Translations under genes and position numbers: made by a program
DNA from: Ignavibacteriales bacterium
Lineage (GTDB): Bacteria; Bacteroidota; Ignavibacteria; Ignavibacteriales; Melioribacteraceae
Direction of reading: 5' to 3'
NCBI GenBank assembly: GCA_026390795.1
Contig: JAPLFG010000001.1
Location: forward strand, 248,001-312,000
DNA length: 64,000 nt
The notes under the pieces: model-generated
What the model saw: only the letters and a program-made list of their open reading frames with translations
Databases searched by the model: none
Told to the model about the DNA's origin: nothing
Shown here: positions 17,693-34,716 of the stretch, one piece after another
Numbering within the stretch: the stretch's first letter is position 1
Layout: every line of letters starts with the position of its first letter

Positions 17693-20600
17693 TTAAAAAT
17701 ATGCTTTTGCTTCAGCTCTCATCGTCTGAATTACTCTACTCTCCCCTTGTTTACGCGCATCGTAGCTAAATGATAACTGGACCAAACTTGAGATACGGTA
17801 ATCGAAAAATACACGCCAAAAATAATTTTTTCCAATTACATTTCCTCTCGTCATCTCAAAGGGCAGATTAAAAGAATTTGATGAAGAAATTAATTCGGTT
17901 CTTTCCACTTCAATGCGTAAGCGCCCTAAATTTTCAAAAGAAAAATTTGCATGTAATAAAACGGAATTCATATCAATTGAAGACGGAAAGATTGGATAAG
18001 TGTCCTCACTTTTACCGCTCTCAATCTTGAATCCAACTTCAATATCATGCTGAGGACGGTACGAAAAATCAGACGATAAATTATTTCTGGTGACGAGACG
18101 GGCTCTATTAGTTGTTGCCGGAGATAATAGATTGTCAATTTGATTTATGAATTCGGTTTGATTACTAATTTCTTCAACCATTTTGAATTTAATACGGAAT
18201 CCGCGTTCGCGGAAAAATCCATTCTCAATTCCGCCGTTGAACTGATTGAGAGATTTTCTCTGAGTAAATCTTAACCTAAAAGAGAGCTCATTACTATTTT
18301 GGAAAATATTGAAATCGTGTTGGAATAGCTGAGAACCTTGTATTGTTGTAGAATCATTCAAAAATTTTGAGAAATGAAGCAAATAAATATTTTTGGTTTC
18401 CGGGTCTTTGCTGTTCTCCTCAATCCGGAAAGAGGTTTCTGTGGAAATTGATTTAAGAATATCTGACCAGATGTTTTGATTTTTAAATGCTTTGTTGAAA
18501 TCAATTTTTAATCTTGTGTTTGTCTTTAACGCCATCACCGGGAATAATTTTTCAGTGGGGATTGTGATAAGTGAATATTCTCCATCATAAGCTGTTATTT
18601 GAAATTCATTTTCTTCTTGAATGCCGTTATTGTTTAGATCGCCTAGATAAATATAATTGCCGGTTCCTTTCGGAACTTTCACAAATACCCTTTCAAATTT
18701 CGCTATTTGTTCCGTTGCTGCCTGGTAATAAATATCGCCCGATATAAATCCATTCCATAGATTAAATCTGCTTTGTGAGAGCAATAATACTGTTTCATTA
18801 TCTCCGTAACCTTGAATTTTGAAATCGTCGGTATATATTTTATTGCGGAATGTCATATTTAGAGATGTTGAAAATTCTTTGAGTCCGTGATAATTAAATT
18901 GCATTTGCTCTGTTGTTGAAGTAGACTGTTTTCTAAGTTGTCCGTTCAAAGGAAATGATTCGTCCCTCAATGAAAAACTAAATTTTGAATCCAAAACAGA
19001 TGAGATTGTAAAATCAATATAAGGTGAGGCTTCGGAATACTTCAGGCTTGATGATAACAAACTATCCTTTGATGCTAATCTTTCTTCCTTATCTTCATAA
19101 ATAAAATTCATACCGGGTTTGAAGGATCCGAAAGTATAAAATACATTTCCATTTTGGCGTAACCAGTTTGAATGAATCATATTATTTGTAGAATTCACAT
19201 AATCAAGATCGTAGTCAAGTTGATAATCTTTTTTGTTGCCAAAGTTTAATTGAGAATATAATCGGTCGGAACTAAAATCGTCTCCTTGTTTCAAGTAACC
19301 GTACTTAGTGATAAGTGATAAGAGTTGGATTGGAGAATAAATTAAAGATATTTCCCGAAGTGTTTGATCTTCTGCGACCAGGACCGGCAAATTATAATTA
19401 CGGTTGAATTCAACATCATTTATTCTATCTAAAGATGAAAATCTTCCCTGGATGAATCTATCTTTAAAACTAAATCCGATTTTACCAAGTGAACTATTCC
19501 CAACTTTTATTTCCCGTTGATTTACTTCAAAAAATATTTTACGGGCATAACCAGAATTAGAGTCATCTCCAATTGAAGAAAACCGATTCTGGTCCCAATT
19601 GCTTCCGGTTAATTCTGCAGAAAGAGTGACACCTTCCATTAGGATTGCGGCTGCAGAAAAATTTCCTAATTGTTTTAATTCCGGCATAGGCAAATAAATT
19701 AATGGTAAGTATGAGCCATTTTTAATTCCAACAAAACGGTAGTTTCCCAAACTCTCTTTTGTATAATCGCCAAAACTCTCTCCTACATAACTGAACGAAA
19801 CATTATAAATTGCAGAGAGTGCGCCGGGTAAATATTTATAGTAAGTATATTGCTGAGAGTTAATGAGAGTATCAATTTTTGAATAGATACCATGAACTTT
19901 ACCGGTTGAATCGGGAAGTGCTAGAACGACTCCCGATCTGGTAGCTGCGTTTCTATCATTACCGGCAAGTTTTAGAATATTTAGATCATTTTCATTGAAT
20001 GTATATTCAATTGGATTGTTTTCATCATCCCCTTCTCTAAAATAGCTAACGCCAATTTTTACTCTCTCATCTAAAATTTTTGTAGAAAAGTCCGTTCCCA
20101 AAAAATTTCTTTTAAATTTCTGATCCGAGTATTCAAAATCGATAGAAATCCGGCTTGCTGAGGTAATCAATCTTTTAGCGGTAAAAGTTATCTCAGAATT
20201 TGAATAATCAATTATGTAATCGTTGTTTTCTCCGCGTTTCATCTGTTCGCCGTCAATATAGACGCGCTCGCTTCCGGCAATAACTATTATCTCTCGTTCA
20301 TTATTAATTCCGTTCAAGCGGTAAGGACCTTGATTTCCGTCCATTCCAGAAAATTGATTGGTAGTAAATTTCCCTCTAGAGCCGGCAATAGCTATTGTTC
20401 CGTTTGATGATTCGTAAAGGACTTCACCTTTCAACCCTTGCAATTTCCTGGTCACCTGGGAGAATTCATTCTCTCTTAAATTCAACTCATAATCACCAAA
20501 TGTTCCAATTGCATTTTTATGCCGAAGTTCGATAAATACTTTATCAAGTTCATCAAGCGTTTCTGTGTTTCCTTCTGGTTGAATTGGCGTATTTTCATCC

Positions 20601-21160
20601 GTGAGTGCTGCAACAAGTTCTATATCATCGGAAAGTTTTCCGGAAAGCTGTAACCGTAAACCGCTATTCAAAGTAAAATCGCGATTAGTTCCAATCGTGA
20701 ATCCGCGAATAATCGCACCGCTCTTATGTAAATCCTTTCCAAAAATAGATTCGGATGTTAGTGGTTCTCCTATCTTTTTGGAAGATCGAATGATATCTAA
20801 AGATTTTTCATTGTACTCTATTACAAGACTTCTTCTTTTGTATTCTTTTTGTAAACTCAATTTGACTGATTCGTACCTAACGAAAAGTGTATCGAGTAAA
20901 GAATATGTTAAATGGGGTGAAAGAGAGAAAGATCCGGTAGAATAATTAAATTCATATTCGCTATTGAGCAAAGTCTTGCCTCTTAAAACAATATTCTCGG
21001 TATGAGGAATTATAATTAAAGAAGAAATTTTGTAAAAATTATCGGAACGAATTTGAATTGTATCTCGAATTACAACAGAATTTTTTATCTGTGGAAATAG
21101 AAATGCCGGAGTGAATAGAATAAATAAAATATATATGTGGTTTAGAAATATCTTCTTCAA
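17693..21160 (-). CDS. Large outer-membrane beta-barrel protein of unknown function
   Basis: A 1155-residue protein with an N-terminal signal peptide (about residues 1-24, ending F-L-F-P-Q). I do not recognise a named family. Two similar immunoglobulin-like segments, each of the form V-x(2)-DG/RG-x-x-L/M...Y-x-(I/F)-x-Y-S-x-(S/G), occur near residues 55-95 and 300-345. Between them is a stretch with G-F-T-I-G-T-N-R-D and D-E-N-T-P-I-Q-P-E-G-N. The remainder alternates polar and hydrophobic residues and ends in a short aromatic-terminated strand (A-K-A-Y-F), as expected for a long outer-membrane barrel. It lies 71 bp downstream of the five-permease export operon and may be co-transcribed. A surface-assembly or export role is conceivable but unproven. 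Confidence 0.72.
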   Translation of the reverse strand: MKKIFLNHIYILFILFTPAFLFPQIKNSVVIRDTIQIRSDNFYKISSLIIIPHTENIVLRGKTLLNSEYEFNYSTGSFSLSPHLTYSLLDTLFVRYESVKLSLQKEYKRRSLVIEYNEKSLDIIRSSKKIGEPLTSESIFGKDLHKSGAIIRGFTIGTNRDFTLNSGLRLQLSGKLSDDIELVAALTDENTPIQPEGNTETLDELDKVFIELRHKNAIGTFGDYELNLRENEFSQVTRKLQGLKGEVLYESSNGTIAIAGSRGKFTTNQFSGMDGNQGPYRLNGINNEREIIVIAGSERVYIDGEQMKRGENNDYIIDYSNSEITFTAKRLITSASRISIDFEYSDQKFKRNFLGTDFSTKILDERVKIGVSYFREGDDENNPIEYTFNENDLNILKLAGNDRNAATRSGVVLALPDSTGKVHGIYSKIDTLINSQQYTYYKYLPGALSAIYNVSFSYVGESFGDYTKESLGNYRFVGIKNGSYLPLIYLPMPELKQLGNFSAAAILMEGVTLSAELTGSNWDQNRFSSIGDDSNSGYARKIFFEVNQREIKVGNSSLGKIGFSFKDRFIQGRFSSLDRINDVEFNRNYNLPVLVAEDQTLREISLIYSPIQLLSLITKYGYLKQGDDFSSDRLYSQLNFGNKKDYQLDYDLDYVNSTNNMIHSNWLRQNGNVFYTFGSFKPGMNFIYEDKEERLASKDSLLSSSLKYSEASPYIDFTISSVLDSKFSFSLRDESFPLNGQLRKQSTSTTEQMQFNYHGLKEFSTSLNMTFRNKIYTDDFKIQGYGDNETVLLLSQSRFNLWNGFISGDIYYQAATEQIAKFERVFVKVPKGTGNYIYLGDLNNNGIQEENEFQITAYDGEYSLITIPTEKLFPVMALKTNTRLKIDFNKAFKNQNIWSDILKSISTETSFRIEENSKDPETKNIYLLHFSKFLNDSTTIQGSQLFQHDFNIFQNSNELSFRLRFTQRKSLNQFNGGIENGFFRERGFRIKFKMVEEISNQTEFINQIDNLLSPATTNRARLVTRNNLSSDFSYRPQHDIEVGFKIESGKSEDTYPIFPSSIDMNSVLLHANFSFENLGRLRIEVERTELISSSNSFNLPFEMTRGNVIGKNYFWRVFFDYRISSLVQLSFSYDARKQGESRVIQTMRAEAKAYF

Positions 21161-21231: not shown

Positions 21232-22458
21232 TTACTCGTATCTTAAAGCTTCTATCGGGTCTAGGTTAGATGCCTTAATTGCCGGATAAACTCCAAAAAC
21301 AACTCCGACAAAAGTAGTGAGTATTAATCCAATGATAATCCAATCGATTGGAAGAACAATAGCGACACCTAGCTGTAATGCAACTAAATTCCCGCCCATC
21401 ACACCAAGGAAAATTCCAATCAATCCACCGAACCAGCTGAGTGAAACTGCTTCAACAACAAATTGAGTTAGAATTGATTTTCTTTTGGCTCCTATGGCTT
21501 TACGAATTCCAATTTCGCGTGTACGCTCAGTTACGCTTACAAGCATAATATTCATAATACCAATTCCAGCGGCTAGAAGAGCGATAAATGCTATTACTGC
21601 GGCGCCAAGTTTGAAATATTTAGTGAGATCGTTAAACTGCTGTATTAGCTGTTCATTCGTAACAATCTCAAAATCATTCTCTGCTCCGCTCGGGACTTTT
21701 CTAATTTTTCTTAAAGCACCTATAACTTCATCCGTAGTTTTTTCTATTAGCTCTTTATTCTTGCACATAATAATTATAGAAGCGCTTCGCTCGGTGCCAA
21801 AAATTTTTTCAAAAGTGCCAAGCGGTATTGCAACAAAGTTGTCCTGGGACTGACCAAATATTGATCCACGTTTTTCAAATACACCTGCAATTTCAAAATT
21901 GAAATTATCTATTTTAATTTGCTGTCCGATAGGTGAAATGCTTTTGAAGAATTTTTCTGAGATATCCGTTCCTATAACAACAGTGGGACGTGAATAATCA
22001 TAATCAGCTTTAGATAAGTTCCTCCCCTCACCGATTTTTAAATCTCTCGCAATAAAAAGATCTTGATTTACTCCTGCAATACCGACATTAGGATTGGTTT
22101 TAATGTTGTTATATTTTAATGTTGTACCACCTCGGCTAACGGAAACCCCAACAGCTACAGGAAGAGTTGTAATCTCTTTCAACTTCTCTGCTTCCTTAAC
22201 AGTTATATTTTTACGATTATGATTACGGCTACGATCATGCGGGCCAAGTTGAATTGCCGGCCATTTACTTACAATAAAATTATTTGATCCAATCGAATTA
22301 AAAATATCTTCAAAACTTTGTTGGATTGCGCCAATGGCTGTCATTACGATAATAATCGAGAAGAGTCCGACCGTTATTCCTAACAACGTAAGAGATGATC
22401 TTAGTTTATTAGCAATGATAGAACTAAGAGCGAGTTTTATACTTTCAAAAATTTGCAT
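21232..22458 (-). CDS. MacB/FtsX-type ABC permease, subtype A (third copy)
   Basis: A 408-residue permease: one N-terminal helix (about 20-42, L-R-S-S-L-T-L-L-G-I-T-V-G), a periplasmic MacB-core domain (about 45-280), and a C-terminal FtsX domain of three helices with the conserved loop SVTERTREIGIRKAIGAK. It belongs to the A subtype, recognisable by L-A-L-S-S-I and the D-N-F-V-A-I-P-L motif, but is the most divergent of the three A copies. No ATPase domain is fused; the ATPase is the separate gene at 27596. It is last in the operon, 5 bp after the second B-type permease. Confidence 0.9.
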   Translation of the reverse strand: MQIFESIKLALSSIIANKLRSSLTLLGITVGLFSIIIVMTAIGAIQQSFEDIFNSIGSNNFIVSKWPAIQLGPHDRSRNHNRKNITVKEAEKLKEITTLPVAVGVSVSRGGTTLKYNNIKTNPNVGIAGVNQDLFIARDLKIGEGRNLSKADYDYSRPTVVIGTDISEKFFKSISPIGQQIKIDNFNFEIAGVFEKRGSIFGQSQDNFVAIPLGTFEKIFGTERSASIIIMCKNKELIEKTTDEVIGALRKIRKVPSGAENDFEIVTNEQLIQQFNDLTKYFKLGAAVIAFIALLAAGIGIMNIMLVSVTERTREIGIRKAIGAKRKSILTQFVVEAVSLSWFGGLIGIFLGVMGGNLVALQLGVAIVLPIDWIIIGLILTTFVGVVFGVYPAIKASNLDPIEALRYE

Positions 22459-22463
22459 ACTAT

Positions 22464-23699
22464 TTACTCGTACCGTAATGAATCAACCGGGTTGAGCCTC
22501 GATGCTTTCCATGCAGGTAAAAAACCGGAAATAATTCCGACCATAGCAGAAATAAGTAGAGCAATTAGAACAACATCGAAAGGCATCGCGGTTGGTAAAA
22601 ATTGGTTGATGATAAGGCTAAGCGGAAATGAAATCATTAATCCTATAATTCCACCCATGAGACACAGTAAGGCGGATTCTGTCAAAAATTGAAGAAGAAT
22701 TGACCACGTTTTAGCGCCAATCGCTTTTCTTACTCCAATCTCTTTCGTCCTTTCAGTTACTGAAACGAACATTATATTCATTATTCCAATTGCACCTACA
22801 AATAATGAAAGTGCCGTAATAACAATACCCGCTATTCCAACAACCCCAATAGTTTTATCATACATATCTTTCAGCGCTTCCTGCTGATTGATTGCAAAGT
22901 CATCCGGTTTATTAAATGGGACTTTTCTGATAATACGCATCGCAGCGATTATCTCTTCTCTTGCATCCGGAATTTTATCAACATCACCGATCTTGATATC
23001 TATCCTTAATCTTTGATGTCTATTGCTGATCACAGTTTCAAAAGTCTTTAACGGCATTATTATTTGACCATCCATACTGAATGAACCCATCATACCGCTG
23101 CCTTGTTTTTCCAGAACACCAATAACCTGCATCGGAATATTATTAACTTTTATTTCATTATTAATAGGACTTTCTACAGGAAAAAGCTCATTCGCAATAT
23201 CTTTTCCAATAACACATACTCTTCTTCCGGCTCGTACGTCAAGATCAGTCAAAAATCTACCTTGTTCAGGATTTACATTTCCAGTTTTTTGATAATCTTC
23301 AGTCGTACCATAAACCAAAGTAGATTGAACGGATTTTTCTTTACGTTTGATCGTAGCTCCAAAAGAACTTTTACTTGGAGCCATGGCTTCGTAGTTTTTA
23401 AGTATGCCTCGCAATTTTTCATACTGTTCATAAGTAATATCTTTTCTATTACGAAATTGAGCCCAATCTCCCATTGCGAACCAAGGATATTTATCAACAT
23501 AAAGAACATCGCTTCCAAACGAGGAGATGCTTGAAATAAATGCTTCACGGAGACCGACCATTGCTGTAGACATTGTTGTAACCGCCACTATACCGATAAT
23601 AATTCCAAGTGTAGTTAATATGGAACGAAGTTTGTTCGATCGTATTGCTGTAAAAGCAATTAGAAGGATTTCGCGAAATTCAACGATGAATATTTTCAT
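22464..23699 (-). CDS. MacB/FtsX-type ABC permease, subtype B (second copy)
   Basis: A 411-residue permease with the same architecture as its neighbours. B-subtype marks are the N-terminal F-R-E-I-L-L-I-A-F-T-A-I-R-S-N-K-L-R, V-D-K-Y-P-W-F just after the first helix, the D-G-Q-I-I-M-P-L segment, and the C-terminal loop SVTERTKEIGVRKAIGAK. Its closest relative in the window is the permease at 26347, not the ones beside it. It is likely to pair with an A-type subunit to form a heterodimeric channel; that pairing is inference. Confidence 0.9.
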   Translation of the reverse strand: MKIFIVEFREILLIAFTAIRSNKLRSILTTLGIIIGIVAVTTMSTAMVGLREAFISSISSFGSDVLYVDKYPWFAMGDWAQFRNRKDITYEQYEKLRGILKNYEAMAPSKSSFGATIKRKEKSVQSTLVYGTTEDYQKTGNVNPEQGRFLTDLDVRAGRRVCVIGKDIANELFPVESPINNEIKVNNIPMQVIGVLEKQGSGMMGSFSMDGQIIMPLKTFETVISNRHQRLRIDIKIGDVDKIPDAREEIIAAMRIIRKVPFNKPDDFAINQQEALKDMYDKTIGVVGIAGIVITALSLFVGAIGIMNIMFVSVTERTKEIGVRKAIGAKTWSILLQFLTESALLCLMGGIIGLMISFPLSLIINQFLPTAMPFDVVLIALLISAMVGIISGFLPAWKASRLNPVDSLRYE

Positions 23700-23791
23700 A
23701 CTCTAAAATATTCATTATGAAGATTGAAATGCAATTTTAAAATAAAATAATTGGTCACGCAAAATGAAAAAAATTATTTTATGGAAAAAAA

Positions 23792-25021
23792 TCATTCGTA
23801 TCGCAATGCATCAATCGGGTCTAAGTTGGATGCTTTATATGCCGGATATGTACCGAAAGTTACCCCAATAATAACGCAAAGTAATACGCCTATAATTATC
23901 CAGTCTAACGGAAGAACGGCTGTGGCTTTTAGGAATGAACCTGCTAGATTTCCAACAAGTACACCTAAGATTATTCCAATTAGTCCTCCCAACAAACTCA
24001 GAGTAACGGCTTCTGTTAGAAATTGTATTAATATATTTAGTTTTTTTGCGCCGATAGCTTTTCTAATTCCGATTTCACGAGTTCTTTCCGTAACAGAGAC
24101 CAGCATGATATTCATTATTCCAACTCCGGCTGCAAGAAGAGCAATAGCGGCAATTACAATTGAGCCAATACGAACTCCGGAAGTAATTGTATTTATTTGT
24201 GTCAGCATAGATTCATTTGAAAAGATTTCAAAATTATCCGGTTCCCCAGCCGGTACTTTTCTAATAATTCGTAAGTATCCTGATGCTACATCAATAAGCT
24301 CTTTATAAGTTTCATCATCTTTTCCCATTACAGTTATATTAATACTTCTAGTATGTCTGCCGTAATAATTTTGAAATGTAGTTATCGGGATCACTGCAAA
24401 GTTATCCTGACTCTGACCAAAAGCTCCGCCTTGAGATTCGAGAACACCGATTATTTTTAACTTATGCCCATCCATGGTAACAACTTGATCAACCGCACTA
24501 AAGTTGGGGAACAATTTTTTAGCGATATCCGCTCCAATAACCACAATATCTTCGTAGCGTTGAACATCACGATCGTTGAAGGCCCGCCCGTCTTCCACAG
24601 TCCATTTATTATTTGGAAATGCTTCAGGTGTAGTTCCGGCAATTTGAATATTTGGATTTGTCTCTCTGTTGCCAACTTTTATTAGTTTACCAAAATTCCA
24701 TTGTTCGGCTCCAACATATTTGGCTTCCACAAGTTTTGCTTTCAATTCATAATATTCTTCAAGAGTTATATCTGGACGGTTTCTAAAACGCGCTCGATCA
24801 TTCGGACCATTATTGAAGACTGGAAATTTCTGAATTTGAAATGTATTCTGCCCCAGCATCGAGACACCTTCTTGAATGCTTTTCTGAAGCATTTCAATTA
24901 TGGTGCTGATTGCAATAATAGAAAAGATACCGACTATAATACCTAATATAGTTAGCGAAGACCTTAGTTTGTTTGTCCGGAGAGAAGCAATGGCAATTTT
25001 AATAATTTCTAAAATTCTCAT
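23792..25021 (-). CDS. MacB/FtsX-type ABC permease, subtype A (second copy)
   Basis: A 409-residue permease starting M-R-I-L-E-I-I-K-I-A-I-A-S-L-R. The open frame extends eight codons further, but GGAG lies 8 nt before the ATG at 25021, so I use that. It is very similar to the permease at 25115 along its whole length: both share I-V-G-I-F-S-I, the L-G-Q-N-T-F-Q-I-Q-K-F-P stretch, F-R-N-R-P-D-I-T-L, and G-Q-S-Q-D-N-F-A. A recent tandem duplication is the simplest explanation. The FtsX loop SVTERTREIGIRKAIGAK is intact. Confidence 0.91.
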   Translation of the reverse strand: MRILEIIKIAIASLRTNKLRSSLTILGIIVGIFSIIAISTIIEMLQKSIQEGVSMLGQNTFQIQKFPVFNNGPNDRARFRNRPDITLEEYYELKAKLVEAKYVGAEQWNFGKLIKVGNRETNPNIQIAGTTPEAFPNNKWTVEDGRAFNDRDVQRYEDIVVIGADIAKKLFPNFSAVDQVVTMDGHKLKIIGVLESQGGAFGQSQDNFAVIPITTFQNYYGRHTRSINITVMGKDDETYKELIDVASGYLRIIRKVPAGEPDNFEIFSNESMLTQINTITSGVRIGSIVIAAIALLAAGVGIMNIMLVSVTERTREIGIRKAIGAKKLNILIQFLTEAVTLSLLGGLIGIILGVLVGNLAGSFLKATAVLPLDWIIIGVLLCVIIGVTFGTYPAYKASNLDPIDALRYE

Positions 25022-25114
25022 ACAATCATCTCCATGCTTATTCAAATTGCAAAATGAAATTATATTTCAGCTCTAAACCAGAGCCGTAATCATAGCATGT
25101 TTTAAAAACAGAAT

Positions 25115-26347
25115 TTATTCGTACCGCAGAGCTTCTATAGGATCAAGGCTAGAAGCTTTGTAAGCAGGATAAGTTCCAAAGCTTACACCAATAACGACGC
25201 ACAACATAACTCCAATCATTACCCAGTCTATTGGAATTACGGCAGATGCTTTTAAGAATGAACCTGCTAAATTTCCCACAATAACGCCAAGTATTATTCC
25301 AGCAATACCGCCAAGGAGGCTAAGGGTAACAGATTCGGTTAGGAATTGAAAGAGTATATTTATTTTTTTTGCACCGATCGCTTTTCGTATTCCTATTTCA
25401 CGGGTTCTTTCTGTAACTGATACCAGCATAATATTCATTATTCCAACGCCGGCCGCAAGCAGAGCGATTGCTCCAATAACAATGGAACCAATACGTACCC
25501 CAGAAGTAATCTGATTTATTTGTGTTAGCATCTGTTCATTTGATCTGAAATCAAAATTATTTTCTTCACCCGCTTTCAAACCTCTGATAGTCCTGAAATA
25601 ACCTTCTGAAATTTCCATTACATCATTGTAAGATTCTTTATCCTTCGTCATTACGGTAATATTGATACTGTTATTCCTTTTACCATAAAAATTCTGATAT
25701 GTCGTAATCGGAAGAATCGCAAAATTATCCTGGCTTTGACCGAATACTGCACCTTGCGCTTCGAGGACACCAATCACCCGCAATTTATGACCATCCATAG
25801 TGACCACTTCATCAACCGCACTCATATTTGGAAAAAGTTTTTTTGCTACATCGGCACCAAGTATTATATAATTTTCATACCGTTGAACATCTCTTTCACT
25901 GAAACCACGACCATCATCAACAACCCATTTATTATTTGGAAATGCTTCTAAGGTGCAACCCGAGACTTGAACATTTGGATTTGTTTCTTTATTACCAACC
26001 TTAATCTGTTTTCCGAAATTCCATTGTTCGGCACCGACCGATTTTGCTTCAACAAGTTTAGCTTTCAATCGGTAGTATTCATCTAGAGTAATATCCGGGC
26101 GGTTTCTGAATTTTGCCCGTTCAGCCGGTCCGCCTGTATTAATAGCTGGAAATTTTTGGATCTGAAAAGTATTCTGACCAAGTTGGGAAATACCATCTTC
26201 GATACTTTTCTGCAGCATTTCAATTACTGTACTTATTGTAATAATTGAAAAAATTCCGACTATAATACCAAGAATGGTTAATAAAGAACGCAATCTATTT
26301 GTACGTAATGATGAAAGTGCAACTTTTATTACTTCAATAAATTTCAT
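25115..26347 (-). CDS. MacB/FtsX-type ABC permease, subtype A (first copy)
   Basis: A 410-residue permease, near-twin of the one at 23792. It has the N-terminal helix, a MacB-core periplasmic domain with G-Q-S-Q-D-N-F-A-I-L-P-I, and a C-terminal three-helix FtsX domain with SVTERTREIGIRKAIGAK. The ATG overlaps the stop of the preceding B-type permease by one base (TAATG), showing translational coupling of a B-A pair. That coupling is the best sequence hint that the functional channel is a B/A heterodimer. Confidence 0.92.
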   Translation of the reverse strand: MKFIEVIKVALSSLRTNRLRSLLTILGIIVGIFSIITISTVIEMLQKSIEDGISQLGQNTFQIQKFPAINTGGPAERAKFRNRPDITLDEYYRLKAKLVEAKSVGAEQWNFGKQIKVGNKETNPNVQVSGCTLEAFPNNKWVVDDGRGFSERDVQRYENYIILGADVAKKLFPNMSAVDEVVTMDGHKLRVIGVLEAQGAVFGQSQDNFAILPITTYQNFYGKRNNSINITVMTKDKESYNDVMEISEGYFRTIRGLKAGEENNFDFRSNEQMLTQINQITSGVRIGSIVIGAIALLAAGVGIMNIMLVSVTERTREIGIRKAIGAKKINILFQFLTESVTLSLLGGIAGIILGVIVGNLAGSFLKASAVIPIDWVMIGVMLCVVIGVSFGTYPAYKASSLDPIEALRYE

Positions 26348-27585
26348 TACTCATACCTCAATGCTTCAACAGGATCTAATTTAGCCGCTGTGTAAGCCGG
26401 CGCAAATCCGGAAAGTACTCCGGTTAAAATTGATATTACAATTGCCAGGATGAATGCATCTGCCTGAACAGAGGTAGGGAGGAATTGATTAATGATAAGA
26501 CTCAATATTATTGCTATTACTAACCCAATCATTCCACCGATCAAACAAATTATCGCAGATTCGAAAATAAACTGTCCAAGTATTGATCTTTTTTTGGCTC
26601 CAATCGCTTTGCGGATACCGATTTCTCTGGTTCTTTCTTTTACCGAAACAAACATGATGTTCATAATTCCAATTGCACCAACGAATAAGGACAATCCTGT
26701 GATAAACAATCCCGCTATTTGAATTACACCTACAGTTTGATTAATTGTTTTTAGTAAAGCTTCCTGCTGGTTAATTGAGAAGTCGTTTTCTTCATTGTAT
26801 TTTAAACCGCGTACTCTTCTCATAATGCCAACAGCTTCTTCTTTTACTGCATCAACCATCTGACTATTTGGAGCGCGGACATTAAAAGTGACGCTTCTAA
26901 AATTTTCACTTTGGAAATACTTAAAAATATTTTGTATTGGTATAAATGCCTGGTTATCCGGATTAAAATTTCCCATTACCCATGATCCCTGCTCTGCAAG
27001 GACGCCGATAACTTTAAATTTGTGCCCCTTTATTTTTACATCATTATCTAAAGCGCTGCCAAGTGGAAATAATTTCTTTGCTACTTCACTTCCAAGTACG
27101 CAGACTTCTCTACCACCATTACTTTCTATTTCATTGAAGAACCTTCCTTCACTAAAATTTAAGTTGGTTGTATTGATATACTCATCTGTTGTTCCCTGAA
27201 CTAGTATGAATTCAACAGAATGTTCTTTCTGTTTTATTGTTTGATTTGACCAAACAGTTGGTGCAGAAGCAGCAGGAAGTTTGGCAAGTTCTTTATACCT
27301 TTTATAATCAGCTAACGTAATATTTCTGCGGTTGCGCATTTGCCAAAACGGTATATCATTATTAAACCATTGCCATTTGTCAATGTAAAGGTTATCTGAA
27401 CCGAGAGAAGCTACACCTTTTTGAAATGCGTTATCAATTCCTTTAATTGCCGTAGACATTAGAACAACAGAAGCAATGCCTATTACAATCCCCAGAGTTG
27501 TTAAGACCGCCCGGACTTTATTAGCCCGGATTGCTCTTAGAGAAATCAGTAACCCCTCTTTCAATTCAAATAAATAATTTTTCAT
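26347..27585 (-). CDS. MacB/FtsX-type ABC permease, subtype B (first copy)
   Basis: A 412-residue permease. The open frame reaches 27630, but the upstream part overlaps the ATPase gene and is not permease-like, so I start at M-K-N-Y-L-F-E-L-K (27585), with AAAGG just upstream. B-subtype marks are L-L-I-S-L-R-A-I-R-A-N-K-V-R, I-D-K-W-Q-W-F and D-N-Q-A-F-I-P-I. The cytoplasmic loop reads SVKERTREIGIRKAIGAK. It is 10 bp after the ATPase gene and is coupled to the following A-type permease. Confidence 0.91.
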   Translation of the reverse strand: MKNYLFELKEGLLISLRAIRANKVRAVLTTLGIVIGIASVVLMSTAIKGIDNAFQKGVASLGSDNLYIDKWQWFNNDIPFWQMRNRRNITLADYKRYKELAKLPAASAPTVWSNQTIKQKEHSVEFILVQGTTDEYINTTNLNFSEGRFFNEIESNGGREVCVLGSEVAKKLFPLGSALDNDVKIKGHKFKVIGVLAEQGSWVMGNFNPDNQAFIPIQNIFKYFQSENFRSVTFNVRAPNSQMVDAVKEEAVGIMRRVRGLKYNEENDFSINQQEALLKTINQTVGVIQIAGLFITGLSLFVGAIGIMNIMFVSVKERTREIGIRKAIGAKKRSILGQFIFESAIICLIGGMIGLVIAIILSLIINQFLPTSVQADAFILAIVISILTGVLSGFAPAYTAAKLDPVEALRYE

Positions 27586-27595
27586 TTTGCAACCT

Positions 27596-28318
27596 TTATG
27601 ATTTGGATGCGCCGTTTTTCTTTGGCACATATCTTTTAGTCACTTCTTCATCTCTCTCTATCAATCCATCTCGTAACCTTATAATTCTTGCTGCATGTTC
27701 GGCAATGTATTCTTCGTGCGTTACAAGTATTATCGTGTTGCCCTGTTCATAAATTTCATTGAATAGTGCCATGATATCTTCTCCGGTTTTTGTATCCAGG
27801 TTACCGGTAGGTTCATCCGCAAGGATTATTGCAGGAGCTGTTACAAGAGCGCGGGCAATTGCTACACGTTGCCGCTGTCCGCCGGAAAGTTCATTTGGTT
27901 TGTGATGAATACGATCTGATAATCCAACGTGTTCTAAAGCAAGTCTTGCTCTTTCTTTTCTATCAGAAGATGATACGCCTGCATAAATCATCGGCAGTTC
28001 AACATTATGTAGTGCATCCGATCTTGGAAGTAAATTAAAAGTTTGAAATACAAAACCAATCTCTTTATTTCTAATCGCTGCAAGCTCATTATCATTCATT
28101 TGACTGACATTAGTACCTTTAAAATCATAGAGACCTTTTGTTGGCGTATCCAAACAACCTAATATATTCATCAAAGTTGATTTACCGGAACCGGATGGGC
28201 CCATGATTGCGACGTATTCATTCTTGTTTATCTTCAGAGAAACATCTCTAAGAGCGTGCACTTCTTCACTGCCTACCTGATATATTTTTGCTATATGTTC
28301 AATATTAATGATGTTCAT
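27596..28318 (-). CDS. ABC transporter ATPase (LolD/MacB type)
   Basis: A 240-residue stand-alone ATPase that powers the five downstream FtsX permeases. All catalytic motifs are intact: Walker [10 protein letters not shown], signature [15 protein letters not shown], Walker [13 protein letters not shown], and H-loop V-T-H-E. The family includes LolD, FtsE and the ATPase half of MacB. In canonical MacB the ATPase and permease are fused; here they are separate, and one ATPase gene serves five permease genes. It lies 21 bp after the adaptor gene. Confidence 0.95.
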
Positions 28319-28339
28319 TTTAGTTCCGTTCTTTGTGAT

Positions 28340-29623
28340 TTACTTTTTCTCTGTTCCTGCACGTTTTGGCTGCATCGATATTTTTGAACCATCTTCCAAT
28401 TCTTTTGAGATAGCTCTGTACGGACCGCTAACAACATTTTCATTTCCTTTTAAGCCGCTAACAATTTCAATATACGTATCGTCACTAATTCCGGTTTTTA
28501 CTTCCAGCATTTTAGCTTTATTATCTTGGTTAATAAAAACAACTTCTTTTGGTTTGTTGTTTCTATCTTTTTTTGCTTTAGCGTCAATTGCTGCTTGATC
28601 ATTAGCCTGAGACGGATCCATCACTGCTTCTTTAGCAACACGAGCTGTAACGCTTTGGATTGGAACAGACAATACATTTTCTTTCTTTTCTGTTTGAATA
28701 TCAGCATCGCAAGACATTCCCGGTCTAATTTTATTCTCCGGATTTATAATTAAAATCTTTACCTCAAAGTTTACCACTTCGTCTTGAGTTCCCAGACCCT
28801 GTGTTATTGCACTATTACCTATTTGAGTTACTACACCTGTGAAAGTTCTGTCTGTGAACGCATCAACATGGATTTTTGCGGTATCTCCAACGGAAATTAG
28901 TACAACATCATTTTCATCAACACTTACGGTAGCTTCCATTTTGCTTAGATCCGCAACAGTTAACATTTCGGTACCGGGACTGAATCCGCTGCCCAAAACT
29001 CTTTCACTGAGATCTATATTGCGTTTGCTTATAGTACCATTTAATGGCGAGTAGACAATTGTTTTATTTAGATTTGTAATAGCGTCTTTTAAAGAAGCTT
29101 CAGCCTGTACAACTCCGGATTTCATTGCTTCGTAATTTCCAAGAGTCTGAAGATAAGTAGATTTTGCTGTTTCAAGTTCAGAGTCACTTGCTAATTTCTT
29201 CTGTGCTAGTTCCTGGACTCGTTTATAATCAGATTCAACCTTATCAAGCTGAGCTTTTGTTGATGATAAGGAAGATTTTGATTGTGCCAACCGTGCATCT
29301 GCGCTATTTTTTTGAGCTTCATAATTATCCGGTTTTATTCTAAGAAGAAGTTGCCCTTTTCTAACTACATCTCCTTCCCGAACCGGCAGATCAACGACTT
29401 CTCCGGTTGCTTCTGCACTAATTTTAACTTGATAAACAGGATTAATTTTTCCCGTAGCAGAAACCACTTGAGTAATATTTCTCTTCTCAACTTTTTCTGT
29501 CTGAACTACAACGACTTCTTCCTTACTGCCGCTGAAAATCACCAGCAGAAGAACTACAAGCAGAAGAAGTCCTAATCCGCCGAAAATAAAAAGTTTCTTT
29601 TTCGATTTTTTCCCATTAGCCAT
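28340..29623 (-). CDS. MacA-like periplasmic adaptor (HlyD/RND membrane-fusion family)
   Basis: A 427-residue adaptor that bridges an inner-membrane transporter to TolC. An N-terminal hydrophobic anchor (about 8-30) is followed by a barrel-sandwich (lipoyl-like) half with A-T-G-E-V-V-D-L-P-V-R-E-G-D, a coiled-coil hairpin (about 95-200, rich in A/K/Q/E), the second lipoyl half with V-Y-S-P-L-N-G-T-I, and beta-barrel and membrane-proximal domains. An unusual Lys/Asp/Asn-rich insert (around residues 335-360) interrupts the C-terminal part. It is second in the operon, 24 bp after the TolC-type gene. Confidence 0.93.
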   Translation of the reverse strand: MANGKKSKKKLFIFGGLGLLLLVVLLLVIFSGSKEEVVVVQTEKVEKRNITQVVSATGKINPVYQVKISAEATGEVVDLPVREGDVVRKGQLLLRIKPDNYEAQKNSADARLAQSKSSLSSTKAQLDKVESDYKRVQELAQKKLASDSELETAKSTYLQTLGNYEAMKSGVVQAEASLKDAITNLNKTIVYSPLNGTISKRNIDLSERVLGSGFSPGTEMLTVADLSKMEATVSVDENDVVLISVGDTAKIHVDAFTDRTFTGVVTQIGNSAITQGLGTQDEVVNFEVKILIINPENKIRPGMSCDADIQTEKKENVLSVPIQSVTARVAKEAVMDPSQANDQAAIDAKAKKDRNNKPKEVVFINQDNKAKMLEVKTGISDDTYIEIVSGLKGNENVVSGPYRAISKELEDGSKISMQPKRAGTEKK

Positions 29624-29647
29624 TGTATTTAACTCCTTAATGTAATT

Positions 29648-30994
29648 TTATTCAAATTTTGAAAAATCTAATCTTCCGATAGCATTATTCAATTTATCGT
29701 GCTGGCGATAGAAATCATATCCAGCATTAATCTTGTTACTTAGAGCATCTTGATAATCTCTGCTTGCTTGAAGAACATCGAGTAAAGTAGCAGAACCAAG
29801 ATTATATCTTTCTTGATTGATCTTCCGGGTTTCTTCGGCAGCAGCAACATTTTTTGTTGCAACATCTAGACTTTTTTTAGCGGCAACTAAATCTAAATAA
29901 GTTTGCTTGATCTCAATTTTGATTTGTCTTTCTAACGCAGAAAGATCTTCTCTTGCATTCAACTCGGTAACTCTTGCAAATTGAATTTGAGATTCAGTGC
30001 TAAAGTTAGAGAATATTGGAATATTTAAAGAGAGTCCAATTGAAAAACTTTTTCTATTAAAAAGGTCGCCAGTTGTAACAGCACTTGTTCCATAAGAATA
30101 ATTTCCACTTAATGATGGATACAGACCACTCCTTGCAATCGTTAAACCACTTTCAGCAGCACTAAGAGTCAATTGCTGGCTCTTATAATCAAAACGTTTA
30201 TCTAAAGCAGTATTTACCATAGTTTGAATATCATCGAAATCTTTCAAATAGGTATCAGAATCAACTACTTTTTTCCCCTCAAACGGATCAACCAGCACAT
30301 ATTCTTCTAAGACATTCAAAGCAAGGTAGTTTAGAAGAGAAGCTTTCGACGATTCATAAATATTTTGTGTCTGAATTTGAAGAAGTTCTGCATTACCCAA
30401 TTGAACCTGAGCGGTGTAAACATCGGCAAGTGTAACAGATCCTAAACGGTTTCTTTCTTGAACAGTCTCGTAAAGTTTCTGAAAATATTTCACATTTTCT
30501 TCCCTTACCGAAAGCAATTCCTCAGCATTCAAAACGATGTAAAAATAATCTGTTGTTGTGTACACAATATTCTGTTTTATTTTCGATATGTTATATTCAC
30601 TTGCATGTAAATTATCTTTACTTTGAGAAATAGCAGCATAATTTGCTAATCCATTGAATAGCATAACATTTCCACTTAGACCTACATTATAATATCTATT
30701 CTCGGTAGTGGACGCTGGAATTTCGGTAGCATTGCCGAAAAAATCTCTTTGAATGCCACCCTTATCAGTTATTCTTTGCCAGTTGAATTGAGCGCCAGCA
30801 CCAAGACTTGGGGCCAATTCACCGTAGGCATTTTTAAGTTGTGATTCACTGTTCGTAAGATTGTTCTTAGACTTAATAAGAGTAGTATTTTTTTGAAGCG
30901 CAATTGATATTGCTTCTTGAAGTGTTAATTTCTTCTGAGCGAAAGTCGGTAAGGCAATCATCAAGACAATGAGCAATATTGAAATTCGTTTCAT
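29648..30994 (-). CDS. TolC-like outer-membrane efflux protein
   Basis: A 448-residue outer-membrane channel. A signal peptide (about 1-19, ending T-F-A-Q) is followed by two OEP repeats with the typical long amphipathic helices and Y-x-G-S-A/V-T-L-x-D-V-L/Y motifs (GSVTLADVYTAQ and GSATLLDVLQA). It forms the exit duct for the ABC exporter encoded downstream. The gene is first in the operon; AAAGGAGA precedes the ATG. The 90-bp gap before it, after the cca stop, is the likely promoter region. Confidence 0.94.
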   Translation of the reverse strand: MKRISILLIVLMIALPTFAQKKLTLQEAISIALQKNTTLIKSKNNLTNSESQLKNAYGELAPSLGAGAQFNWQRITDKGGIQRDFFGNATEIPASTTENRYYNVGLSGNVMLFNGLANYAAISQSKDNLHASEYNISKIKQNIVYTTTDYFYIVLNAEELLSVREENVKYFQKLYETVQERNRLGSVTLADVYTAQVQLGNAELLQIQTQNIYESSKASLLNYLALNVLEEYVLVDPFEGKKVVDSDTYLKDFDDIQTMVNTALDKRFDYKSQQLTLSAAESGLTIARSGLYPSLSGNYSYGTSAVTTGDLFNRKSFSIGLSLNIPIFSNFSTESQIQFARVTELNAREDLSALERQIKIEIKQTYLDLVAAKKSLDVATKNVAAAEETRKINQERYNLGSATLLDVLQASRDYQDALSNKINAGYDFYRQHDKLNNAIGRLDFSKFE

Positions 30995-31084: not shown

Positions 31085-32503
31085 TTATTGATTCTTATGA
31101 AGAAAGTCATCTTTTATTCTTAAAAAATATTCAAATGATTCTTCATAGTTGTTTGCAATTTTACCATCGAGAATGGCTTCTTCAATTGCGGTCTTTATTT
31201 CGCCAACTAATTTTGATGGAGGTATATTGCAAACTCTCATAATCTCCTCGCCTCTTACCGGAGATTGAAAAGCTCTTAGTTGATCTCTCTCTCTGACATC
31301 CTTAACCTTCTGCATTACAATTTCGTAGTTCTCTAGATAGCGAGAAACTTTTGAAGGATTTTTACTTGTTATATCTGCCCTACAAAGCGTTATCAAATCA
31401 TCCAGATCTTCGTCTGCAGAGACAATTAACCGGCGTATTGCTGAATCGGTAACTACTTCATCAACTAATGCTATTGGACGAAGGTGAAGCCGTACTAGCT
31501 TTTCAATGTAATCTAATTTTGTCAAAGGAAGTTTCATACGGTTGAAAATAGTTTTCATCATACGGGCACCGAGTTCTTCATGCCCGTGAAAAGTCCAGCC
31601 TGTTCCCTCAACAAACCTTTTTGTTTGAGGTTTTGCAATATCATGAACTAGAGCTGCAAACCGTAGCCAAATATTTTCGGTCACTGAGGCAATATTATCA
31701 ACTACTATACAAGTATGGTAAAAAACATCCTTGTGATGAAAATCTTTTCTTTGTTCAACTCCTGCCAATTTATGTATTTCAGGAAAAACTACTTTCATCA
31801 CTCCGCTCTCGAACAAATTTATCAACCCGATCGAAGGTTTTGGCGAGGCGAGAATTTTCATAAACTCATCTGTAATTCTTTCTTGAGATACAATAGTAAG
31901 ACGATCAGCCATTGACCCGGCAGCTTCAATTACCGATTTATCTATAATAAAATTTAGTTGCGAAGCAAACCTAAATGCACGCATGATTCTAAGCGGATCG
32001 TCATCAAATGTTTGAAAAGGATCTAATGGTGTACGGATTAACTTATTTTCAATATCAATTAGGCCGTTAAACTTATCTATTAATTTTCCAAAGTCTTCTT
32101 CATTTAATGAAACCGCAAGAGTATTTATTGTAAAATCACGCCGGTTAATATCATCATCAAGAGTTCCAATTTCAACAATGGGGTTTCTGCTCTCCCTTAA
32201 ATATGATTCTTTACGTGCTCCTACAAATTCAAGTGATATATTTTCGTAAATGAAATGTGCAGTACCAAAATTTTTATAGATCGAAATGTTTTTTACACCA
32301 AGTGAGTTTGCAAATTGTTGAGCAAATTGAGGTCCGCTTCCTACGACAAGAAAATCCATCTCGCTTCGAGATCGTTGCAAGACAATGTCTCTAACAAATC
32401 CACCTATAAGAAACAATTCTTCAGAACGAGATCTAGCTAATACTGATGCTTCTCTTAAAAATGTATATTCTTTTAACTGATCTTCAAAATTCATTTTACT
32501 CAT
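31085..32503 (-). CDS. CCA tRNA nucleotidyltransferase / poly(A) polymerase family with HD domain
   Basis: A 472-residue class II nucleotidyltransferase that would add or repair the tRNA 3' CCA. The head domain has LIGGFVRDIVL and RRDFTINTLAV, the neck has DDPLRIMRAFRFASQL, and an HD domain follows (A-L-V-H-D-I-A-K, with G-H-E-E-L-G-A). One oddity: the metal-binding D-x-D reads E48-M-D50, so the first Asp is Glu. An alternative start is Met4. No tRNA in this window encodes CCA, so the cell needs such an enzyme. The gene overlaps the upstream metallopeptidase gene by 8 bp. Confidence 0.88.
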   Translation of the reverse strand: MSKMNFEDQLKEYTFLREASVLARSRSEELFLIGGFVRDIVLQRSRSEMDFLVVGSGPQFAQQFANSLGVKNISIYKNFGTAHFIYENISLEFVGARKESYLRESRNPIVEIGTLDDDINRRDFTINTLAVSLNEEDFGKLIDKFNGLIDIENKLIRTPLDPFQTFDDDPLRIMRAFRFASQLNFIIDKSVIEAAGSMADRLTIVSQERITDEFMKILASPKPSIGLINLFESGVMKVVFPEIHKLAGVEQRKDFHHKDVFYHTCIVVDNIASVTENIWLRFAALVHDIAKPQTKRFVEGTGWTFHGHEELGARMMKTIFNRMKLPLTKLDYIEKLVRLHLRPIALVDEVVTDSAIRRLIVSADEDLDDLITLCRADITSKNPSKVSRYLENYEIVMQKVKDVRERDQLRAFQSPVRGEEIMRVCNIPPSKLVGEIKTAIEEAILDGKIANNYEESFEYFLRIKDDFLHKNQ

Positions 32504-34715
32504 TACTAAATTTTTTTATCCCATCGGCATTGTTCTTAAACCAGTTTACCATTCTCAAATTTTCCACAAACTGATGATTTGAATTCTCATCTTTCTTAAA
32601 ATCGAATGAATGTACTGCAAAATATTGAGCTTGTCCATAATCCAAATTCTTCAATGCACTCATTGATATTTTAAGTGCGGCATAACTGGAGACGTAATCT
32701 GTAACCTGTAATTTATTCCGCAAATCTGAGATTAATTTTATAATATCTTGATTTGACCGTTCGGCTAATCTCAATAACGATGGTATTGAATAATATTTAA
32801 TTCCCTTCTCATTGTGCCTCAACAAAGTTTCATACTTCATGATTTCATTTTTATCGAAAAATGATTTCAAGGAATCGGTTCCATCTTCAAGGATCGACTT
32901 TCTAATCAAGACTTCGTTCGTGTAATCAACGTGGGGATTCTGCTTTAACAAAGAGTCGTAAACCGCAACAGCGTCGGATTTTCTATTTGTTTCAATGAAT
33001 AGATCACCGAGTGCAAGTTCGAGATAAAAGAAATACTGACTCTTCTTAAAATTAACTAATTGTTCGTTCAAAACCTTTTCCGCTTCAGAATATTTTTTTT
33101 CTTTGGAATAACATGCAATAATACCAATTAAAGATTGATAGGAATTGGAGTAGCTATAGACTTTCTGAAATAGGTTGAGTGCGTCACTAATCCGTTTTGT
33201 ATTGAATAAATTCCATGCTTTTTTTACTTCCGCACCAGCAACGCGGGGACAGAATTTTTTAAATATTGTTGTACCGCCAAAGTAAAGTTGAGCTTTGGAA
33301 TTGTTAACATTAATCTGATATATTTTCAGAAAATCGTTATACTCTACAACAAGAGCAGATAAGTTTTTACCATAGATCATGGTAAAATCAGTGTTGCTGT
33401 AAAGTGTTTTTATTTTTTCAACACCATACTTATCTACCAGATATTTAATAAATGATCCGCAATAGATATACGAAATTGATGAATTCTTAGAAAAAAAGTT
33501 GAGTCCCTCAAAAAGTTTTTCAATCGAGATTTTGTAACCGGCTTGATTTGCCAGTTTTGCCATGTAATGAACTGGATTACCATTGTAGTTGTCCTCGAAA
33601 GCCATGGCGAATCCTTCAATCATTGAAGGATTAAAATTTTCTGCAACTTTTAATATGTTCTTTCCACTTCTAGCAGCTATAACATGCGCTAATTCATGCT
33701 TCAAGCTCCCTTCATAGTTGGAAAAGTTAAGGTAAATTTGATTTAACCAGGGTTTGGCAATATCGGCATTTCCCGACCCGAGAAGTTCCCTCTTTTGATC
33801 TCTATTACTAAAAATATAGGAATCGATTTTTTGTTTGTCAGTATGAAATTTAAGTTCGATTGTCAGTTGATCAAAGTAATACTCGTTAAGAAGAGCAGCA
33901 AATATTGCTTCCTTGTTTTTAAGAGAATCCGGTAAATGTACATGGAAATGTTCTGTAGTTATTGATTTACTCAGATTTCTGTCTAAACGGTTTTTATCCG
34001 TGGCAAAATGTAAAATTGGTTTTAAAAAAATAAATGCGATGACAATTATCAATAATGATGAAGAAATGAGAATTCTTTTGAAAAATACTTTTGAAGAGAT
34101 TCTCTTCGCAATTAAAACCATTGCAACGAAAAAGATAATATTACAAATTCGATAACCGATCAGCAATTTATCTACTGATAAATCTTCGTCATAGATTGTA
34201 CCCGGATAAAACCCGAATATTGGATTATAAAAATAAATTTGAGGATTAAGAAAAAATTCAACCAGAGATGATAAGAGAATCACAAAAAAAAGAACTAAAA
34301 AAAAGAATAAAGCATATTTAGGCGTTACAGAAAAGGAGAAATATCCTGTCACTAATCCAAAAATAAATGATGGAATAGTAATCACAAAAAAGAATAAGAC
34401 ACCGTCTATAATTGGGCATTTTGAAATAAATAAACTTGGTATCAGGCTGATTAGAAATGGTAATAATAAAAAGCTCAAGAATAAAATTTTATTATTATTT
34501 AACAACTCTAAGAAGCTCTTATAACTGTTCTTTTTAAATTTTGATTGGGCAGTTAATCCGCCGAATAAAAAAAGTAATATTCCATTTATAGCAGCAAATT
34601 CAAATCCAATGGTACCTGTTAGCGGTAATTTTGTAAGTAAAATGTTTATGATTATTAATACAAGGAGATAAACACTGGCAATATCTAAATAAATTTCTTT
34701 TTGAAATACCTTCAA
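32496..34715 (-). CDS. Polytopic membrane metallopeptidase (HExxH) with TPR-like C-terminus
   Basis: I do not recognise a named family. The N-terminal third has about seven hydrophobic segments. A soluble domain follows with a zinc-peptidase motif, H-E-L-A-H (His353 to His357, counted from the GTG at 34754), and a downstream M-I-E-G-F whose Glu380 is well placed as third zinc ligand. This matches the gluzincin (peptidase MA-like) pattern. The C-terminal third is helical, with TPR-like repeats. The open frame begins at GTG 34754, inside murA. A TTG at 34715, one base after the murA stop, is the more economical start (739 residues). It sits in a run with a Ser/Thr kinase, murA and a CCA enzyme. 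Substrate unknown. Confidence 0.75.
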   Translation of the reverse strand: MKVFQKEIYLDIASVYLLVLIIINILLTKLPLTGTIGFEFAAINGILLFLFGGLTAQSKFKKNSYKSFLELLNNNKILFLSFLLLPFLISLIPSLFISKCPIIDGVLFFFVITIPSFIFGLVTGYFSFSVTPKYALFFFLVLFFVILLSSLVEFFLNPQIYFYNPIFGFYPGTIYDEDLSVDKLLIGYRICNIIFFVAMVLIAKRISSKVFFKRILISSSLLIIVIAFIFLKPILHFATDKNRLDRNLSKSITTEHFHVHLPDSLKNKEAIFAALLNEYYFDQLTIELKFHTDKQKIDSYIFSNRDQKRELLGSGNADIAKPWLNQIYLNFSNYEGSLKHELAHVIAARSGKNILKVAENFNPSMIEGFAMAFEDNYNGNPVHYMAKLANQAGYKISIEKLFEGLNFFSKNSSISYIYCGSFIKYLVDKYGVEKIKTLYSNTDFTMIYGKNLSALVVEYNDFLKIYQINVNNSKAQLYFGGTTIFKKFCPRVAGAEVKKAWNLFNTKRISDALNLFQKVYSYSNSYQSLIGIIACYSKEKKYSEAEKVLNEQLVNFKKSQYFFYLELALGDLFIETNRKSDAVAVYDSLLKQNPHVDYTNEVLIRKSILEDGTDSLKSFFDKNEIMKYETLLRHNEKGIKYYSIPSLLRLAERSNQDIIKLISDLRNKLQVTDYVSSYAALKISMSALKNLDYGQAQYFAVHSFDFKKDENSNHQFVENLRMVNWFKNNADGIKKFSNE

Positions 34716-34716
34716 T

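Follow-up and report, generated by a model that had tools for sequence, protein, structure and literature searches.

What kind of exporter is encoded by an operon in which five permease genes follow a single ATPase gene? This question is raised by positions 21232–30994 on the minus strand of a 64,000-nt stretch of DNA from an Ignavibacteriales bacterium (contig JAPLFG010000001.1), hereafter the window. Read from 30994 to 21232, the operon was composed of genes for a TolC-type outer membrane factor, a periplasmic adaptor, and a LolD-type ATPase, followed by permeases B1, A1, A2, B2, and A3, which are named after two permease types, A and B. Gene calls and Pfam matches agreed with the first-pass annotation, which had described these components with unfused MacB-like permeases in a B-A-A-B-A order; 8 of 8 genes were found on the minus strand at the positions it had given, and the one-base stop/start overlap that it had noted between the first B and A genes was seen at B1/A1. 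The operon probably encodes a tripartite exporter with a B/A heterodimeric permease, in which two cognate pairs work on one ATPase. This reading draws on gene order, two permease clades, linkage, co-occurrence, apparent parallel duplicates, and orthologous ATPases behind either pair. The subunit make-up is most likely LolCE-like, and the pump MacB-like in sequence and in having an adaptor and TolC. In what follows, genomes are labelled G, loci or stretches L, and contigs of the bacterium's own genome C.

The five permeases (408–427 aa) each scored above the Pfam cut-offs for MacB_PCD and FtsX, and a Pfam search detected no ATPase domain in any of them. Pairwise identities were 76% for A1–A2, 46% for A1–A3, 50% for A2–A3, and 49% for B1–B2, and 33–37% between A and B. 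Because the identities split in this way, the two types are real. Trees were built from 273 permeases with FastTree and from 110 with IQ-TREE, and A and B came apart in both. In the IQ-TREE phylogeny, the A clade (44 rows) and the B clade (47 rows) were each supported at 100/99 and joined to each other at 97/89, with single-permease MacBs and the X/Y clades (described below) falling outside. The two sequence types of the first-pass annotation, and the two clades that it had proposed to look for, were thus recovered. The B2, A3, and A1/A2 groups had supports of 100/100 each, as did the grouping of B1 with L094, a locus labelled Aminicenantes that, like other metagenome-assembled records, may be mis-binned. 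Both clades contained the same loci, among them L091, L101, L087–L089, L083/L086, L090/L084, L093/L096, those of Ignavibacteriales, and Bacteroidia, a pattern that two genes travelling as a pair would produce.

The motif behind helix 1 by which the types had been told apart fared less well. When 44 A and 47 B proteins were aligned, this stretch contained a single position that told the types apart at ≥75% (Asn for A, Asp for B), and the motif was ruled out as a family-wide marker. Two positions of transmembrane helix (TM) 2, just ahead of the coupling helix, were Ala/Leu in 135 of 142 A rows and Gly/Phe in 99 of 104 B rows. Other MacB-type rows had Gly/Leu in 38 of 41 cases (single MacB-type, 6 of 7; X/Y, 32 of 34). 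With single MacBs as the reference, one residue seems to be derived in each type, Ala for Gly in A and Phe for Leu in B. With A and B recognisable by these two residues, the pairing idea can be checked across many genomes and in laboratory Bacteroidia.

Linkage was analyzed in 60 stretches, which were the window and 59 others from 52 of 56 listed relatives. The conserved B–A adjacency suggested as a check was present throughout: all 75 of the 75 B genes had an A gene directly downstream within 700 bases. Therefore, the B-then-A adjacency is more than chance. The gap was −1 (the one-base overlap) in 32 of these pairs, between −8 and 5 in 62, and 533 bases at most. B1 was followed by an A1/A2-type gene in 49 of 49 cases and B2 by A3 in 26 of 26. 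Of the 80 named loci taken from the genome collection, 17 had B followed by A, with a spacing of ~1.1 kb at L101 and with B in two pieces at L092. The order at L086 was TolC-adaptor-ATPase-B-A-B-A-B-A with a single ATPase. Split genes, each consisting of two open frames, were an A copy at L021:583-1579 and the B gene at L092:6648-7895.

The co-occurrence of the two types was evaluated in 60 genomes of the phylum that were picked without regard to the presence of A or B; among the matches listed, 53 genomes had both types, 6 had neither, 1 had A only, and 0 had B only. The A-only genome, G108, had an unlisted second match, and G088 was placed by hand from a partial match. A directly downstream A gene was found for 49 of the 58 B genes among the matches listed. 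Families f14 and f19 each mixed genomes having both types with genomes having neither, which implies two or more joint losses of A and B, provided that the sampling is right. The two types were unlinked in Bacteroidia. When 19 Bacteroidia genomes were searched with the B profile, 18 contained B as a separate permease with a B score above its A score; these 19 were picked for having A and are biased, and the phylum sample is the unbiased test. In the IQ-TREE phylogeny, 14 rows from 12 of 18 Bacteroidia loci sat within the B clade.

These counts bear on the possibility that each permease forms a MacB-like homodimer, in which case the operon would be an array of five separate homodimeric exporters in tandem, a product of duplication, with one ATPase in common. 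We regard such an array as unlikely, although the solved close relatives with an adaptor (MacB and Spr0695) all have one permease, and extra A-only and B-only copies exist. Independent loss or movement of the genes would be expected of it, yet none of the sampled genomes had B without A among the matches listed, every B gene of the relatives kept an A behind it, and A and B still co-occurred where they were unlinked. In favour of the array, the genome of the window also holds a single-permease system of membrane fusion protein, ATPase, and permease. The ten MacB_PCD matches of this genome comprised the five of the operon, one on C3, and four on C5, and the C3 locus was a classic split system with an adaptor, an ATPase, and a single permease. 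Because this system has a single permease, it should be an ordinary homodimer, and the same cell would contain the expected homodimeric form as well. Two more side-by-side pairs with weaker MacB_PCD matches were located at C5:47502-49383 and C5:404176-406036; those that were tested (L007 and L008) belonged to neither type.

AlphaFold2 monomer models of A1 and B1 had mean confidence scores (pLDDT) of 84 and 82, respectively, and consisted of TM1, a periplasmic domain, and TM2–TM4. Both proteins were modelled as MacB-fold permeases: the top fold matches of A1 and B1 were, in descending order, 5xu1, a split pneumococcal MacB (Z 30.4 and 31.0), LolE (24.8 and 26.4), and MacB 5gko (21.2 and 21.6). 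The four-TM topology of these models, together with MacB_PCD and FtsX in all five permeases, corresponds to a type VII (MacB/FtsX) ATP-binding cassette (ABC) transporter. The NCBIfam lolCE model gave ≤62 bits on the permeases against a cut-off of 362, and the DevC model (TIGR01185) gave ≤32 bits against a cut-off of 290.

A heterodimeric type VII complex could also serve in housekeeping as a LolCDE- or YbbAP-like extractor of lipids or lipoproteins rather than as a TolC exporter. By gene content, the operon has the two different permeases and one separate LolD-type ATPase that make up LolCDE, as given in an excerpt of the 2018 MacB review (PMC5985334). LolE was among the top fold matches (Z 25–26), and the A and B genes of Bacteroidia were mostly single, with neighbours at nine A and B loci that looked like unrelated housekeeping genes; in three Bacteroidia loci (L161, L169, and L175), an ATPase gene lay ~3 kb before B. 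Nevertheless, an extractor is improbable, because in Ignavibacteriales TolC, adaptor, and ATPase genes stood directly ahead of B in nearly all stretches with enough contig, and because the profiles matched MacB sequences at the order of 1e-84 or better (5e-89 for A and 2e-84 for B) and LolC at ~1e-10, in line with the low lolCE scores.

For the tripartite exporter, a mechanism can be proposed in which we infer the physical heterodimer, the sharing of the ATPase, the cargo, and, from the MacB and LolCDE families, the export mechanism. Two copies of the single ATPase would carry one B and one A, as in LolC1-LolD2-LolE1, and form with them a type VII (mechanotransmission) exporter that a MacA-like adaptor would join to the TolC-like duct. 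ATP binding and hydrolysis would move both unlike periplasmic domains together, and periplasmic or outer-leaflet cargo would be driven into the adaptor–TolC tube. B1–A1 and B2–A3 would be cognate pairs that take turns on a common ATPase, adaptor, and duct, and A2 would be an alternative A, able to replace A1 beside B1.

The sharing of one engine is suggested by the places in which B2–A3 occurs. In the one-contig genome G018, TolC-adaptor-ATPase-B1-A1 was located at ~2.69 Mb (L039) and B2–A3 at 3.03 Mb (L040). No ATPase, adaptor, or TolC homologue was detected within the 15-kb stretch around B2–A3 at L040 or L047; L028, L032, and L065 lay too near contig ends to be counted as ATPase-less. In three genomes (G027, G031, and G032; 97, 90, and 87% complete), only B2–A3 was found, directly behind TolC-adaptor-ATPase. 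The ATPases of these genomes shared 81–85% identity with those of B1–A1 operons and were nested among them in the tree, and the adaptors were likewise nested, on starred branches. Because B2–A3 occurs both without a nearby ATPase and alone behind ATPases nested among those of B1–A1, one engine serving either pair is the simplest reading, and the first-pass suggestion of duplicated channels sharing one ATPase and one exit duct appears to be borne out indirectly. Duplication of the whole operon followed by loss was considered as a source of the B2–A3-only operons; the trees of the ATPase, adaptor, and TolC proteins spoke against it, although exact placements in them were weakly supported.

The strict B/A pairing that had been envisaged failed for A2, a recent copy of A1 without a B of its own. 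Within the genus, A1-type genes stood behind B1 in L022, L024, L026, and L027. In L030, only an A2-type gene stood behind B1, and that B1 was 98% identical to B1 of the window, so A2 can take the place of A1. Both A copies of L025 fell on the A2 side of the tree. When A1 and A2 were compared by region, identity was lowest in the periplasmic domain (70%) and highest in TM2–4 (87%). These patterns fit a pump in which A is the subunit that changes while B is conserved. A mixed pool, in which any B pairs with any A, could account for the replacement in L030 but is very improbable given the exclusive order of B1 before A1/A2 and of B2 before A3 and a cross-pair rate covariation near zero.

Rate covariation was measured from residual rates per branch in 17 loci with both pairs (31 branches) and in a larger set of 43 loci, uncorrected for the number of pairs. 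In the 17 loci, the residual rates were correlated within pairs (B1–A1, r = 0.52, p = 0.003; B2–A3, r = 0.37, p = 0.04), and across pairs the r values were −0.11 for B1–A3, 0.04 for A1–B2, −0.05 for B1–B2, and −0.38 for A1–A3. The strong pairs in the 43 loci were ATPase–B1 (r = 0.39, p = 2e-4) and TolC–adaptor (0.47), and ATPase–A1 gave 0.08. Rate covariation lends mild support to the B/A pairing. Partial correlations of distance matrices had at first linked the adaptor with A and the ATPase with B; with per-branch rates this was not upheld, as adaptor–A1 fell to 0.06 in the 43 loci and only ATPase–B1 was kept.

Several observations weigh against two cognate pairs on one ATPase. The adaptor correlated equally highly with B1 (0.53) and A3 (0.51) in the 17 loci, and B1–A1 was weak in the 43 loci (r = 0.23, p = 0.04; rank rho 0.15, p = 0.18). 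The pairing was not one to one: among 93 A rows of the relatives, fragments counted, 75 stood behind B, 15 behind another A, 2 at contig ends, and 1 alone (L052). Tandem B copies were present in two Bacteroidia (three at L173 and two at L178), mirroring the extra A copies of Ignavibacteriales, and the B-profile search found no B in G063, a Bacteroidia genome that has A. Further ATPases are encoded in the own genome, and B2–A3 could use one of them. Finally, B1–B2 and A1–A3 were no clear sisters in the IQ-TREE phylogeny, which placed B2 outside a weak group (83/90) of B1 and other lineages, whereas FastTree gave B1 and B2 as sisters (88) and A1 and A3 as sisters (82). As the branching order differs between the trees, a single joint duplication of B and A is not proven; a parallel duplication of the pair is likely.

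Textbook accounts present MacB-type tripartite pumps as homodimeric. In an excerpt of the 2018 MacB review (PMC5985334), the permease halves are given as a homodimer (MacB and FtsX), a heterodimer (LolCE), or fused, and Table 2 of that review has one permease name for each tripartite example. LolCDE is named as the heterodimeric one in an excerpt of a 2021 review of tripartite systems (PMC8277102), and a Borrelia MacB-like system is described as homodimeric in an excerpt of a 2026 paper (PMC13078400). A literature search, which mostly did not extend to subscription papers and is a weak negative, turned up no account of a MacB-type pump that is heterodimeric and has an adaptor and TolC. The parts are known, and the new element is their combination, two unlike MacB-type permeases with an adaptor and TolC.

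When compared with MacAB-TolC of E. coli and A. baumannii, the operon shared the MacB_PCD and FtsX permease fold, a MacA/HlyD-type adaptor (with a score under the MacA equivalog cut-off), and a TolC-type duct. However, MacB is one fused homodimer, whereas the ATPase here was a separate gene and the permeases, by gene content, were five genes of two unlike clades. LolCDE differs in turn, as the operon had adaptor and TolC genes and permeases that were MacB-like rather than LolC/E-like in sequence. The name MacAB is therefore unfit for lack of a fused ATPase and a single permease, and LolCDE is unfit in model score; the system most likely works like a MacAB-TolC pump with a LolCE-like asymmetry. 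DevBCA-HgdD, YknXYZ, S. pneumoniae Spr0693-0695 (5xu1, the best fold match for A and B at Z 30–31), and the C3 system of the own genome also have a separate ATPase and an adaptor, but each has one permease gene, hence a homodimer, where the present family always has A and B.

Tandem permeases X and Y of Acidobacteriota and Zixibacteria (L107, L114, L118, L140, L147, L157, and others) also formed two unlike clades side by side, with TolC-adaptor-ATPase in front at L107, L114, and L118. They differed in falling outside A+B and in the two TM2 marker residues, which were Gly/Leu or Gly/Met. To our knowledge, these pairs have not been described, and they are possibly an independent heterodimer. X/Y pairs were also seen at L116, L127, and L138, and Y rows had Val where X had the second Gly of the TM2 motif.

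More broadly, A and B may represent an old lineage of heterodimeric tripartite pumps in Bacteroidota, Chlorobiota, and Ignavibacteriota, scattered beyond these phyla, with one ATPase-adaptor-TolC engine, exchangeable pairs, and A swapped on a conserved B; specificity would then be changed by new pairs and not by whole pumps. We offer this generalisation tentatively, with slightly more doubt than conviction. An asymmetric MacB-type pump would be a natural system for separating the two halves of the mechanotransmission cycle and would form a bridge between MacB and LolCDE, which is asymmetric. It would also imply that many pairs annotated as 'ABC transporter permease', even the far-apart ones of Bacteroidia, are halves of one pump. 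With exchangeable pairs on one motor, a wider cargo range would come cheaply.

Table 1. Genes of the operon in the window, in order of transcription
Gene	Product	Position	Strand	Basis
TolC	TolC-type outer membrane factor, 448 aa	29648..30994	-	Pfam OEP 6.2e-60; first gene of the operon in relatives
Adaptor	MacA/HlyD-type periplasmic adaptor, 427 aa	28340..29623	-	HlyD_D23 + HlyD_3
ATPase	Stand-alone LolD/MacB-type ATPase, 240 aa	27596..28318	-	ABC_tran 1.9e-34
B1	Type-B MacB-like permease	26347..27585	-	MacB_PCD + FtsX; type-B clade 100/99
A1	Type-A MacB-like permease, 410 aa	25115..26347	-	MacB_PCD + FtsX; type-A clade 100/99
A2	Type-A permease, recent A1 copy (76% identity), without own B	23792..25045	-	Identities and trees
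B2	Second type-B permease	22464..23699	-	MacB_PCD + FtsX; B2 clade 100/100
A3	Type-A partner of B2	21232..22458	-	MacB_PCD + FtsX; A3 clade 100/100

The genes of the operon are listed in Table 1. The adaptor exceeded the cut-off of TIGR01730 in NCBIfam, and the MacA model was 127 bits below its cut-off of 342. The top NCBIfam match of the ATPase was the ATPase part of MacB, followed by LolD, both under cut-off, and its translation contained Walker A, the ABC signature, and Walker B. Because most full-length relatives start near the Met at 27585 and the ATPase gene ends at 27596, B1 likely starts at 27585 and not at 27630, as in the open reading frame list; the 35-base overlap of the ATPase and B1 genes implied by that list is probably not real. 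The intergenic gaps farther downstream were 69 bases for A1–A2, 92 bases for A2–B2, and 5 bases for B2–A3.

Upstream of the operon (31085–34754, minus strand), a gene for a tRNA nucleotidyltransferase/HD protein, which also precedes the operon in ~40 stretches of relatives, lay next to a gene whose product is a membrane protein of 752 aa that matches Peptidase MA weakly. Just downstream of the array, a 1155-aa gene (17693–21160, minus strand) without a Pfam match encodes a probable outer membrane protein. Its family was conserved and single-copy in 41 of the 60 phylum genomes, and it stood close behind the array in many family-level relatives (29 matches among the stretches). A functional tie to the array was rejected, as five genomes without A and B carried the family (G087, G091, G103, G115, and G126) and its members were mostly far from the array in the phylum sample. 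A weak likeness to SprA was seen in 1 of 16 members at 1e-4 and in the own genome at 26 bits (20039–20284 of the window); a real SprA-type gene sits elsewhere in the own genome, on C2.

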